Below are positions 2,826 through 17,764 of a DNA stretch of 29,955 bases, piece by piece. This DNA comes from a virus: positions 1 through 29,955 of IMG/VR virus record IMGVR_UViG_3300043119_000167; one strand, given 5' to 3'. A model generated the notes under the pieces. It saw only the letters and a list, made by a program, of their open reading frames with translations, had not been told where the DNA came from and did not search any database. Within the stretch, counting starts at the first letter, position 1. Each line of letters starts with the position of its first letter. The translations under genes were made by a program, and so were the position numbers.

Positions 2826-2854
2826 TTGACTTTTCGAGCGTTTTGGTATATAAT
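2826..2854 (+). promoter_or_regulatory. Sigma70-type promoter for the Gly-rich/Dps/fibre cassette
   Basis: TTGACT (2826-2831), a 17-base spacer, then TATAAT (2849-2854): one mismatch from the full consensus with ideal spacing. Transcription should start near 2861, giving a leader of about 65 nt to the ATG at 2926. It sits in the only sizeable non-coding gap on the plus strand (2682-2925). A partial copy of the surroundings lies just upstream: TTGCCC plus an A-run at 2760 and 2808, and an ATAATTAC at 2779 and 2850. This looks like an old promoter duplication, but the upstream copy has no -35 hexamer. Confidence 0.85.
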
Positions 2855-2882
2855 TACATCAGTTCTCAGAAATTGAGTACTG

Positions 2883-2901
2883 CGCGTGATACGCGGTATC
2901 A
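2883..2901 (+). promoter_or_regulatory. Two mutually exclusive hairpins in the 5' leader
   Basis: Two overlapping inverted repeats lie in the leader. CGCGT-GAT-ACGCG (2883-2895) and TGATAC-GCG-GTATCA (2887-2901) share the bases 2887-2895, so only one can form at a time. They lie about 20-40 nt after the predicted transcription start and just before the AAAGGA ribosome site. They could affect translation or mRNA stability, or be a protein-binding site. Function is inferred from position only. Confidence 0.45.
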
Positions 2902-2925
2902 TGGAATTCGTGAAAGGAAAAAATC

Positions 2926-3864
2926 ATGGATGAAACGACAGGCGTACCAGAAGAACCAGCAGTAACTGCACCCGTGGTTAATCAACCAGATATAACCAAA
3001 GCAATTACTGATGATTTAATGAGTGCGCTCAACGATCAGGCTAATCAATCTCGTAAATACTACGAGAAGTTAGCAAAACAAATTAAACAAGTTGCTGAAA
3101 CTAAAGAAACAGCAACACCTCAAGGAGATACAAAAATGGCAGAAATTATGACACCAGGTATGATTATGGGTATGGGCGGTAACGGCGGTGACGGACTATT
3201 CGGTGGAGGCGGCGGTGGCGGTCTTATTGGTGGTTTAATCTTGGGTAGTTTACTACGTCAAGGTAATGGCGGTTTATTTGGTAATGACGGCAATGGTGCT
3301 GGCGCTGCTGGAGCAATGCTACGCAGCCCTCCAGAACAAGTAACAGCTAATATGAGCTTAATGCAAGCTATTGGCGCAGTAGACAAATCAGTTTCAGTTA
3401 ACGCTGCAATGTTTGAAGCTAGTCAAGCAAACCAATCACTGGGTTTAACAACACAGTTAAATTCACAAACATCTAGCTTAGCTGGACGCATTGCTGATGT
3501 AAATCAAAACGTAATGGAAAACCGTTATGAATTGGCTAAAGATATTGCAGCTGATGGTGACCGTACACGTTCACTAATTACAGCACAATACGAAGCTACA
3601 CTAAACCGTCAACTAGGCGATGCAAATGCAGAAATTATTGCGCTACGTAACCGTGCAGCTCTTGATGCAGCTACAAATGGTATTACACTAACTAATACCA
3701 ATAACATCAACCAAATGCAACAACAAACACAATCACAACAACAGTATGCACAACTAGCACACATGATTTATGGTCTAGGCCAAAACATTACAAATGGTGC
3801 AATTAACGTTGGTAGCGGTACGCTAACAGCTAACCCAACCAACACAAATACAGCTATTCGCTAA
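2926..3864 (+). CDS. Glycine-rich, Gln-rich conserved phage protein (312 aa; possible second start at codon 71)
   Basis: Not recognised as a named family. Three parts are visible. Residues 1-70 are acidic and helical. Residues 71-135 are Met- and Gly-rich, with runs of Gly around a short hydrophobic LIGGLILGSLL (a possible membrane or packing segment). Residues 140-312 are helical, coiled-coil-like and rich in Ala, Asn and Gln, including a Gln cluster near 265-275. It is preceded by a clear AAAGGA site and is the first gene after the 2826 promoter. An AAGGAG motif correctly placed before the in-frame ATG at 3136 predicts a second, 242-aa product starting MAEIMTPGMIMGMGG. A terminator follows, then the Dps gene. 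A virion-associated or structural role is plausible because fibre-like genes follow, but nothing in the sequence proves it. Confidence 0.8.
   Translation: MDETTGVPEEPAVTAPVVNQPDITKAITDDLMSALNDQANQSRKYYEKLAKQIKQVAETKETATPQGDTKMAEIMTPGMIMGMGGNGGDGLFGGGGGGGLIGGLILGSLLRQGNGGLFGNDGNGAGAAGAMLRSPPEQVTANMSLMQAIGAVDKSVSVNAAMFEASQANQSLGLTTQLNSQTSSLAGRIADVNQNVMENRYELAKDIAADGDRTRSLITAQYEATLNRQLGDANAEIIALRNRAALDAATNGITLTNTNNINQMQQQTQSQQQYAQLAHMIYGLGQNITNGAINVGSGTLTANPTNTNTAIR
3123..3138 (+). promoter_or_regulatory. Internal ribosome-binding site and in-frame start codon
   Basis: AAGGAG (positions 3122-3127) is followed after 8 bases by ATG at 3136, in the same frame as the 312-aa gene (codon 71). This is as good as or better than the site used at 2926. 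It predicts a nested shorter protein of 242 aa ending at 3864, or alternatively that the shorter form is the main product. Confidence 0.6.
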
Positions 3865-3874
3865 TATTTGACCA

Positions 3875-3909
3875 AAGCCCCCTCAGCCACAAGCCGTGGG
3901 GGCTTTTTT
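3875..3909 (+). terminator. Rho-independent terminator between the Gly-rich gene and dps
   Basis: AAGCCCCC (3875-3882) pairs with GGGGGCTT (3898-3905) around a 15-nt loop that itself contains a CCAC/GTGG mini-stem, followed by a T-run to 3909. The dps ribosome site (AGGAG, 3913-3917) begins only four bases later, and no convincing promoter lies between them. Downstream expression therefore probably depends on incomplete termination. Confidence 0.85.
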
Positions 3910-3923
3910 ACTAGGAGAATAAA

Positions 3924-4445
3924 ATGGCAGACCCAACACAAATGGTAGCAACAGGAATGGCTACTAGACCTCTTCCACCTGTAGATGCACAGTACGCAGA
4001 TTTACAACAATCTACTCGCAAAGCTTTTGCTAGTACGTACGGATTTTTATTAGTAACTCAATGCTATCACTGGAACGTAAATGGACCAAATTTTTTAGAT
4101 TATCATGATTTATTTGGCAGAATATACAAAGAAGTAGACAAAAAACTAGACGATTTTGCAGAACATGTACGCACTATTGGTGCTTATGTACCAGCAAAGT
4201 TTACCAAATTACTAAGCTTATCCAGCGTAGTAGAGCCAGATTATCCAACAGGAACTTGGCCTCTATCAACTGAAATGATTAGTAATCTTTACCTTGCAAA
4301 CAGTTTATTAAACAATGACTTAATGGATGCTTACAACAAAGCAGAAATGTCACGTGAGTATGGATTAGCTAACTTTTTAGCAGAACGCATGGATCAACAC
4401 CGTAAGCATGGCTGGATGCTTTACTCAACAATGAAAGTAGAATAA
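3924..4445 (+). CDS. dps: Dps-family ferritin-like protein (DNA protection during starvation)
   Basis: Dps proteins form 12-subunit shells that oxidise Fe(II) with hydrogen peroxide and store iron, shielding DNA from oxidative damage. The four-helix core and intersubunit ferroxidase pattern are visible: HWNVNGPNF (His49), YHDLF (His61) and LDDFAEHVRTIGA (Asp76, Glu80). The spacings equal those of E. coli His51, His63, Asp78 and Glu82. The position equivalent to Asp67 is Gly65, a loss or substitution of one ligand. The last helix ERMDQHRKHGWML (154-166) is typical of the family. The N-terminal 25 residues contain no Lys and only one Arg, and there is no basic C-terminal tail, so non-specific DNA binding by tails is unlikely. 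The start is fixed by AGGAG 6 bases upstream. The next gene starts one base after its stop (TAATATG). Dps in a phage genome is unusual; the family assignment is strong, the role in infection unknown. Confidence 0.9.
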   Translation: MADPTQMVATGMATRPLPPVDAQYADLQQSTRKAFASTYGFLLVTQCYHWNVNGPNFLDYHDLFGRIYKEVDKKLDDFAEHVRTIGAYVPAKFTKLLSLSSVVEPDYPTGTWPLSTEMISNLYLANSLLNNDLMDAYNKAEMSREYGLANFLAERMDQHRKHGWMLYSTMKVE

Positions 4446-4446
4446 T

Positions 4447-4920
4447 ATGTTAACCAATACAAATAATTTAACTCAATCACAAGTTCAAACTCAAACACTT
4501 GCACCACTACCACCACTGTTTCCAGTATTTCCTTTTATTCCTGACCACGACTTGTTTATTAACAGTATTATTAGTGGAGGAATACCAGGTCCCCAAGGCC
4601 CACCAGGTCCAGCAGGCCCAGCTGGTCCACCAGGCATCCCAGGCTTAGTGCCAGTTACAATTGTAACCACAACACCTTATTTAGCTGATTTAACTGACTA
4701 CTATCTACCAGTAACTTTAGCAACACCAGGTTCTGTAATACTACCAGTAGCACCTACAGGAACAGTATTTATTATTAAAGACATTAGCGGCACAGCTAAC
4801 ATTAACCCAATTACCATAACTGCTAGTACTACCATTGACGGTGCTGCTAGCGCAATTATTAACACACCATACGGCAGCTTAACATTTATATTTAATGGCG
4901 TCGAATGGAACATTGTTTAA
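4447..4920 (+). CDS. Collagen-like fibre protein, paralog 1
   Basis: 157 aa. Residues 1-45 are Pro/Leu-rich and hydrophilic, followed by a short collagen-like Gly-X-Y tract (from about residue 48, GPQGPPGPAG and on to about residue 70) that would form a trimeric triple helix. A beta-rich C-terminal domain from about 75 follows. That domain carries the signature shared with the next two genes: DYYLPV..., a Leu-Pro step, VFIIKD, TIDGAA, PYGSLT and a terminal F.G..W.I. Such modules are common at the ends of phage fibres and appendages. It starts one base after the dps stop (TAATATG) with no separate Shine-Dalgarno site, so it is probably translated by coupling from dps. Likely a virion surface appendage or decoration; the exact location is not known. 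Confidence 0.8.
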   Translation: MLTNTNNLTQSQVQTQTLAPLPPLFPVFPFIPDHDLFINSIISGGIPGPQGPPGPAGPAGPPGIPGLVPVTIVTTTPYLADLTDYYLPVTLATPGSVILPVAPTGTVFIIKDISGTANINPITITASTTIDGAASAIINTPYGSLTFIFNGVEWNIV

Positions 4921-4929
4921 GGAAACAAT

Positions 4930-5328
4930 ATGAGCTATACAAATAACCCAACAACAATCTTAGCCGGAACAGGCATCACAGTAGCACCTACAACTGGCAC
5001 AGGTGCCAATACTATTACAATTAGTGCAACAGGAACACCTGTTCAAGCTGTACAAATTGCTGTAGCTACTCCTGTAACAGTAACCAATGCTGACGACGTT
5101 GTAAGCGTTGAAGTTCCTGGCCCAGTTGCAGTAGCAGTAAATCTACCTGCTGGTGTAACAGGGCAAGTATTTTATATCAAAGACGGCTTAGGTTTAGCAG
5201 CCCCAGCAACTCCTATTACCATTACGCCTGCCGCCGGTACTATTGATGGAGCAGCAACTGCTACTATTGACGCACCTTATGGCGCACTAACGCTTGTTTA
5301 TTCAGGCACACAATGGTTAATACTATAA
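4930..5328 (+). CDS. Fibre-like beta-rich protein, paralog 2
   Basis: 132 aa. The N-terminus ILAGTGITVAPTTGTG resembles the GTG(I/L)T linker found between fibre modules. The C-terminal domain (about 50-132) aligns with the neighbouring proteins: DDVVSVEV, NLPAGVTGQVFYIKDG, GTIDGAATATI, APYGALTLVYSGTQW. There is no collagen tract. It has its own AAGGA site 5 bases before ATG. Its stop is followed after one base by the next ATG (TAATATG). It probably arose by tandem duplication with its neighbours. Role as in paralog 1: an appendage or decoration subunit, function inferred. Confidence 0.78.
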   Translation: MSYTNNPTTILAGTGITVAPTTGTGANTITISATGTPVQAVQIAVATPVTVTNADDVVSVEVPGPVAVAVNLPAGVTGQVFYIKDGLGLAAPATPITITPAAGTIDGAATATIDAPYGALTLVYSGTQWLIL

Positions 5329-5329
5329 T

Positions 5330-5779
5330 ATGAGCTATAGTAGACCACCTGTACCAGGCATTGCATTAAAGCAAAATCCAGCTATAGTATCACCAGGCAG
5401 TGTACTGCAGGTATTAGACTCAAATATTTCTTCAACTACTGAGCTTGGAGTAGTTCAGGTTGGTAGTGGTTTGAGTATTACACCGCTAGGCGTATTAAGT
5501 GCAATCAATAATTCTATAATTAATGTAAAACTAACTAACACAGACTATACAGCTAACGCAGACGATTATTATATTGGCGCTACTAAAAAAGATATAAAAA
5601 TTACACTACCTGTTGGAGTAGTTGGCAAAATTTACGTAGTTAAAAATCAAATTAATGGAAACGTTGAAGTAAAAGGCTCTGCTGGGCAAAAACTAGATAC
5701 TTCTTCTGATAAAAATTTAGGCTCTGAAGCTAGCATTACGGTCGTATTTGACGGCACTCGTTGGAACATTATTAACTAA
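5330..5779 (+). CDS. Fibre-like beta-rich protein, paralog 3
   Basis: 149 aa. A Pro-containing N-terminus (SYSRPPVPGIALKQNP) and a TTELGVVQVGSGLSI linker typical of phage fibres precede the shared C-terminal module: ANADDYYIGATKKDIKITLP, GKIYVVKNQ, SITVVFDGTRWNII. It is the most diverged of the three, with the TIDGAA core replaced by a KLDTSSD segment. It is joined to paralog 2 by TAATATG without its own ribosome site. It is the last gene of the plus-strand unit and ends just before a bidirectional terminator. Confidence 0.78.
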   Translation: MSYSRPPVPGIALKQNPAIVSPGSVLQVLDSNISSTTELGVVQVGSGLSITPLGVLSAINNSIINVKLTNTDYTANADDYYIGATKKDIKITLPVGVVGKIYVVKNQINGNVEVKGSAGQKLDTSSDKNLGSEASITVVFDGTRWNIIN

Positions 5780-5781
5780 CA

Positions 5782-5815
5782 AAAAAGCCCGCACAATTGC
5801 TTGTGCGGGCTTTTT
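5782..5815. terminator. Bidirectional terminator between convergent operons
   Basis: A perfect 10-bp stem GCCCGCACAA / TTGTGCGGGC (5787-5796 with 5801-5810), loop TTGC, is flanked by A-runs on the left and T-runs on the right that could extend the pairing by 5 bp. It lies between the stop of the plus-strand fibre gene (5779) and the stop of the minus-strand 211-aa gene (5817), and works for both directions. Confidence 0.95.
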
Positions 5816-5816
5816 C

Positions 5817-6452
5817 TTATTCAGTGTCTAGTAAACTATCTTCGTCGTCAATGTCATTTAAATCAACAATGTCTTCTGGTCCTAGTTCGGAAAATACTAT
5901 TACTAGTATGTCACGATAAGGTTGCTCTACTAAATGTAGGTCTAGTAGATAAGTATCTAAGTGATTGTTGCGTAGTAGTTGCGCATGATACATAAACTGA
6001 CCAAATGCCTCTAGTTCTTCACTAATGTTTTCGTTAGCATAGTTTTCTAGTATTTGTGCAGCAGCTTGCAGCATTGGTTCTGGAATATGTGCTTTTGTTA
6101 CACGCAGTATGCGTAGTACTTTGCTTTCGCGCGCACGCATAATTTGATTGCGTTTTGCGGTACTCCACGAGTATCCGCCATCACCACCCCACAAATCCCA
6201 AGCTACTCTACCCTTACTTGGAAAACCTTCTTCACCACTGCGGAATCCAGTTGCGGACTTGTCTGTTTCATGTCGCGAAAAAAATGAGTACATTCTTAAC
6301 ACAACACTCTCGGATAGCGGTTCACGATCTTTTAGTTGATTAGCACGAGCTAGACCCACTAGTGTACCGCCAGGCTCACCATCAGCTTTCCAAGCCAAGG
6401 CACGTTTAGCGGCAGTTGCCATGCCGGTTGTTGGTTTGTATGTTTTTGCCAT
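5817..6452 (-). CDS. Conserved phage protein with KPT.GM..AKR.L.W / RVAWDLWGGDGG domain (211 aa)
   Basis: The first 110 residues carry a recognisable phage-associated pattern: YKPTTGMATAAKRALAWK (5-22), GGTLVGLARANQL (28-40), LSESVVLRMYSFFSRHE (46-62), FRSGEEGFPSKGRVAWDLWGGDGG (70-93) and an SWSTAKRNQI run. The same module occurs in many phage proteins, sometimes attached to other domains, but its biochemical role is not known to me. The C-terminal 100 residues are helical and end in a very acidic tail (DIDDEDSLLDTE). It has its own promoter and a palindromic element immediately upstream (6475-6503). AAGG precedes the ATG. It is the last gene on this strand before the bidirectional terminator. 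I assign no function. Confidence 0.85.
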   Translation of the reverse strand: MAKTYKPTTGMATAAKRALAWKADGEPGGTLVGLARANQLKDREPLSESVVLRMYSFFSRHETDKSATGFRSGEEGFPSKGRVAWDLWGGDGGYSWSTAKRNQIMRARESKVLRILRVTKAHIPEPMLQAAAQILENYANENISEELEAFGQFMYHAQLLRNNHLDTYLLDLHLVEQPYRDILVIVFSELGPEDIVDLNDIDDEDSLLDTE

Positions 6453-17735: not shown

Positions 17736-17764
17736 ATTATATCACCTTAGGAGCCTAGTGTCAA
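17736..17764 (-). promoter_or_regulatory. Perfect-consensus sigma70 promoter with extended -10
   Basis: On the minus strand: TTGACA (17764-17759), exactly 17 bases, TATAAT (17741-17736), with TGA directly before the -10 (TGn extended element). Transcription should begin near 17729, about 57 nt before the ATG at 17672. The promoter drives the fibre module and probably the lysis genes beyond the 9416-9445 hairpin. The -35 sits only a few bases past the T-run of the preceding terminator. Confidence 0.9.

Follow-up and report, generated by a model that had tools for sequence, protein, structure and literature searches.

The stretch analysed here (the window) is a whole IMG/VR virus record of 29,955 bases from a freshwater phage, and it carries a five-gene plus-strand cassette (Table 1) that, on balance, we read as a late, self-promoted virion-appendage operon which has picked up a head-linked mini-ferritin. 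The constant unit is not the five genes but gly, encoding a Gly-rich protein, followed by an array of fibre-like (FIB) genes, and dps is a separable passenger of the cassette. Directly observed are the gene order, a conserved hairpin behind gly, the fold of a fibre domain, independent gain and loss of Dps, and the head-operon and fusion contexts in which Dps occurs among relatives. The gly–hairpin–FIB arrangement is a recurrent phage module that is undescribed as far as we found, and currently annotated as hypothetical.

Table 1 Features of the cassette and its borders, in window coordinates
Feature	Position	Strand	Description
Upstream terminator	2690–2725	+ (detected on both strands)	Ends the dut-nrdJ-sm62 operon; upstream border of the cassette
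Cassette promoter	2826–2854	+	Sigma70-type, TTGACT-17-TATAAT, 11/12 match
gly	2926–3864	+	312 aa; Gly-rich hydrophobic segment, coiled-coil/Gln-rich region, conserved tail GSGTLTANPTNTNTxIR
gly short form	3136–3864	+	Internal in-frame ATGGCAGAA start with its own Shine-Dalgarno
Hairpin and U tract after gly	3874–3909	+	Candidate internal terminator/attenuator or 3' stabiliser
dps	3924–4445	+	Dps/mini-ferritin, 173 aa; slot A, optional passenger
fib1	4447–4920	+	Collagen-like GPQGPPGPAGPAGPPGIPG and gp9/gp10-like β domain; TAATATG-coupled to dps and itself lacking a good Shine-Dalgarno
fib2	4930–5328	+	Fibre-connector-like; β domain at residues 38–132
fib3	5330–5779	+	Third paralog; GVVQVGSGLSIT-type N-terminal segment
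Terminal inverted repeat/terminator	5782–5815	.	Between cassette and convergent g211; read directly from the sequence
g211	5817–6452	-	Convergent neighbour outside the operon; N-terminal domain phrog_2859

The borders of the cassette are largely those drawn in a preliminary description of this DNA, which had placed five plus-strand genes between a near-consensus promoter and a terminator. All five open reading frames were recovered, as were the promoter and, at the distal end, a strong inverted repeat. A pattern scan of the window for TTGAC[AT]-N16-18-TATAAT returned the cassette promoter as the single plus-strand site, the only other near-consensus site being a promoter-like TTGAC-18-TATAAT on the minus strand at 17764, amid tail genes. 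An 11/12 promoter is also found upstream of gly in L002, L004–L007, L028, L054, L056 and L108, and this promoter would drive the operon late in infection. A TTGGTNNATAATTAC motif is present twice (2772–2786 and 2843–2857), its second copy overlapping the promoter's -10 region. The cassette was said to be followed by minus-strand lysis genes; its neighbours are indeed on the minus strand, but the first of them are g211 and phoH, and lysis-type genes lie farther away. Overlooked at that stage were the hairpin in the gap between gly and dps and the internal start of gly.

Scans for Dps, gly and g211 yielded about 130 related IMG/VR loci, in which genes were mapped with HMMs, and a second gly scan gave 80 distinct gly loci, each with 200 or more downstream bases. 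The gene following gly is a fibre gene in 69 of the 80 and dps in eight, with another gene or none in the remaining three, and the number of fibre genes per locus ranges from zero to five. Fibre genes are missing from L028, which has gly and dps, and L038 has gly alone; the gly–fibre order recurs in several unrelated-looking contexts. In the window's kin the block is flanked by nrdJ/sm62 and g211/phoH; other contigs have it elsewhere, and some relatives lack it. An empty site is seen in L090, whose sisters L046 and L052 carry the block (nrdJ clade, 98% support), and further empty sites in L060 and L063. On the nrdJ tree gly shows at least seven gains or losses, and Dps at least four, six and four for the three positions termed slots A, B and C below; these counts are rough, since nrdJ may itself recombine.

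The empty sites, the turnover of gly and the cassette's own promoter and terminators would all suit a moron-like insertion that moves as a unit, unconnected to virion structure. We nevertheless consider such an insertion unlikely, as gly, Dps and the number of fibres each change without the others, and structure is indicated by the fold of the fibre domain and by the homologues of gly in tail modules (both described below). The accessory-cassette layout first proposed thus holds for the conserved promoter, the terminator and the empty site of L090 relative to L046 and L052, but it has to accommodate an additional internal hairpin and does not extend to a five-gene unit. The suggestion that the five genes are gained and lost together is contradicted by gene order: they are partly scattered in relatives, where dps, the number of fibres and gly come and go without one another, rather than moving as one set.

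The most constant gene of the cassette is gly, which encodes a phage-specific protein; a search of 84,980 genomes of bacteria and archaea returned no relative of it. The family shares a Gly-rich hydrophobic segment, a coiled coil, a Gln-rich stretch and an invariant C-terminal tail. Its internal start, with an AAGGA-type site, is conserved whether or not a locus has the N-terminal extension, and is the sole start in lineages lacking that extension, suggesting gly may yield two protein products. Direct tblastn searches of cultured phages with the window gly gave no match. The divergent gly of L087, in which (as in L108) the cassette is rearranged with FIB genes ahead of gly, matches gp38 of Iodobacter phage PhiPLPE (39.7% over 228 residues), and the same lineage also reaches XLQ30922.1 of Acinetobacter phage At2, 52.9% identical to gp38. 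Both proteins have the Gly-rich, coiled-coil and conserved-tail architecture of gly but, unlike the window gene, lie beside tail genes, with no adjacent FIB array or Dps annotated: the At2 gene is two genes past a large tail protein and near a tail-spike gene, and gp38 is close to the tail-fibre gene gp36. In PhiPLPE, gp34 and gp35 are marked as confirmed by mass spectrometry and gp38 is not. These homologues in tail modules point to a structural role for gly.

The hairpin after gly is more stable than shuffled sequences (z < -2.5) in 72 of the 80 gly loci. In a covariation test on 20 diverse sequences, with shuffled and slid-partner controls, pairing was maintained in 91.5% of cells as against 66.6% when shuffled, compensatory double changes occurred in 11 of 12 pairs, and the covariation score was 0.688 compared with 0.231 for shuffled sequences; shifting the partner strand abolished the signal. 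A U tract lies 3' of the hairpin in the window and most of its kin and is absent in L030–L033 and L037, so the hairpin may not terminate in every relative. Most simply, the hairpin is read as a partial terminator, which would leave gly as the most abundant product, and a role as mRNA stabiliser is possible. Since a conserved, covarying hairpin would end or limit transcripts behind gly, the protein is probably made in excess. The gap between hairpin and dps is too short to hold a promoter, suggesting dps–fib transcripts arise by read-through or start within gly.

Downstream of the hairpin, the operon would encode a variable array of short proteins with a C-terminal connector domain resembling those of gp9/gp10 or TSP4. 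The three fibre-like genes had been called paralogs, and this is borne out by their falling into a single HMM family. PHROG matches among the fibre-like proteins include tail and baseplate families; none of the three reaches a Pfam gathering-level match, fib1 scoring 16.4 bits against PF07880, the T4 gp9/gp10 connector family (cut-off 25). The AlphaFold2 model of fib2 has a mean pLDDT of 86, exceeding 95 over residues 41–132, and its β domain has the same fold as the connector (XD-type) domains of CBA120 TSP4 (Z 13.1, rmsd 1.7), T4 gp9 (Z 11.3) and T4 gp10 (Z 10.2), with rmsds of 1.7–2.1 across this Z range of 10–13. In T4 and CBA120 these domains belong to long chains of the baseplate or tailspike, whereas the FIB proteins are stand-alone, of 130–157 aa, in tandem arrays, and carry collagen-like or other short N-terminal segments. 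The fold is shared more weakly by the capsid spike of Pseudomonas phage Pa223 (9ny6; Z 9.5, rmsd 2.4). Domains of this kind act as connectors of fibres or spikes, both on heads and on tails; with examples in baseplates as well as a capsid spike, head and tail sites both fit. The array proteins are probably trimeric fibre tips or docking adaptors at one of these sites, and we infer an appendage location for the cassette proteins. Direct tblastn with the window fib2 gave no match in cultured phages. Curvibacter phage P26059A gave the best tail-tip match; its annotation lists no dps, gly or FIB-like gene. Many arrays contain an extra fibre-like gene of ~187 aa (L019:4261–4824, L040:9163–9729, L034:9429–9998) with no PHROG or Pfam match.

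The identification of dps was sound: the protein matches Pfam Ferritin (E 1e-14) and phrog_3636, its 55 bits against PF00210 (cut-off 24.5) indicate that the four-helix ferritin-like domain is present, and PDB Dps structures are among its matches. The ferroxidase residues H-W-H-D-E are intact in the window protein and in all phage Dps examined except the slot A copies of L002 and L028. In these two copies HWFED replaces HWHDE, a loss that counts against the reading of Dps favoured here; the fused slot C copies of the same phages are intact.

The direct reading of dps into fib1 through TAATATG, noted previously, is real and recurs in relatives, being kept in all eight slot A loci that have a fibre gene. 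There, fib1 is without a good Shine-Dalgarno in six of seven loci; where fib1 follows gly, a strong one is usual. Capture of a ribosome-binding site explains the coupling, and a functional bond is not needed. We suggest that dps went in behind the hairpin and ahead of fib1, captured the local ribosome-binding site, and would now drive fib1 through reinitiation at TAATATG. The coupling had led to the proposal that the shell formed by Dps joins the fibre paralogs in a single virion complex protecting against iron or peroxide, with which the retention of TAATATG and the existence of a Dps clade tied to the cassette (slots A and B, below) would agree. We regard such a complex as very improbable: in most gly loci a fibre gene comes next and the fibres have no adjacent Dps, L028 joins gly to dps with no fibre to partner it, the position of Dps relative to the fibres is variable, and site capture accounts for the junction. 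Independent variation of dps and of fibre count and position gives no indication of a joint complex.

Among the relatives, dps occupies four kinds of position. In slot A it precedes the fibres (window, L002–L007, L028), in slot B it follows them, and in slot C Dps forms the C-terminal half of the g211 protein (L002, L003, L006, L007, L028, L097). In slot D it stands among head genes, in the order TerL, dps, p143 (phrog_3497), portal, protease-capsid fusion and head-tail adaptor (L153–L155, L309, L319). In the Dps tree slots A and B form one clade (99%), slot C forms another (98%) and slot D lies elsewhere. Cellular Dps, as sampled, group apart in a clade of their own (100%), which does not favour a recent acquisition from a host. 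L097 falls outside the slot C clade in a first tree, yet a single clade is not rejected by the AU test (p 0.52), and we do not claim two independent Dps-g211 fusions. The distribution of slots A and B relative to slot D is suggestive of mutual exclusion, in too few loci to claim it.

The g211 domain (phrog_2859) is found on Dps fusions, portals, major head proteins and stand-alone proteins, examples being g211 of the window, L006:9285–10079, L125:3715–5619 and L400:4444–6954. Portals of other IMG/VR phages carry it at their C-terminal end. In Synechococcus phage S-CBS3 it is N-terminal on the major head protein (residues 12–106, the head part spanning 217–835), and Roseobacter CRP phages place it similarly. 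The predicted structure of g211 (pLDDT 80) has no convincing PDB match, with a best Foldseek E of 1.3 and a best VIA Z of 5.6, in the range of common arrangements. Taken together, the head-operon position of slot D and the g211 fusions render an association of Dps with the head plausible, and with it the presence of Dps in the virion, although domain sharing does not prove location and the link should not be over-read. The appendage operon is ordinary-looking. That the virion carries Dps is a live hypothesis, based on head genes and not on fibre coupling.

In the appendage operon, the late-made mini-ferritin would scavenge iron and peroxide around phage DNA and would quite possibly be head-associated, its kin being a phage Dps family that sits in a head operon or is fused to a head-protein domain. 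More tentatively, the mini-ferritin could be a head component, brought to the prohead either by synthesis from the head operon or by the domain also present on portals and major head proteins; there it would shield packaged or incoming DNA from iron and peroxide, the cassette copy being one form of it. We found no published work that places Dps in virions or in head operons. Should the particle contain Dps, these phages would bring their own iron and peroxide protection, and phage dps genes would not be genes of host metabolism only; the domain common to portals, major head proteins and Dps fusions would also offer a handle on bringing a foreign enzyme to a phage head.

A serious rival, which may well prove correct, is that Dps works in the infected cell only, as an auxiliary metabolic gene that reduces free iron and peroxide during late infection from any tolerant late operon, with no virion association. 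Phage Dps has been read as cell-metabolic in gut phages (Gratiaviridae and related; PMC8008677) and in Lactobacillus phages (PMC6669764), which resemble the window phage in that a lytic phage encodes Dps; in their passages on Dps these reports describe no head-operon placement or fusion, unlike what we see in relatives of the window. The near-universal integrity of the ferroxidase residues also suits a purely cellular role. A general head association of viral Dps was not found, the PHROG profile of genes neighbouring dps being mixed, and in most other Dps-bearing phages those neighbours are not head genes. A purely cellular role leaves unexplained, however, why dps should recur between TerL and portal and why Dps should be fused to a domain of portals and major head proteins. 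Compatible with it, several relatives carry rubrerythrin outside the structural region (L156:4792–5238 and L157:4805–5254; PF02915, E 6e-17 and 5e-18), in L156 and L157 a second peroxide-handling gene of these phages.
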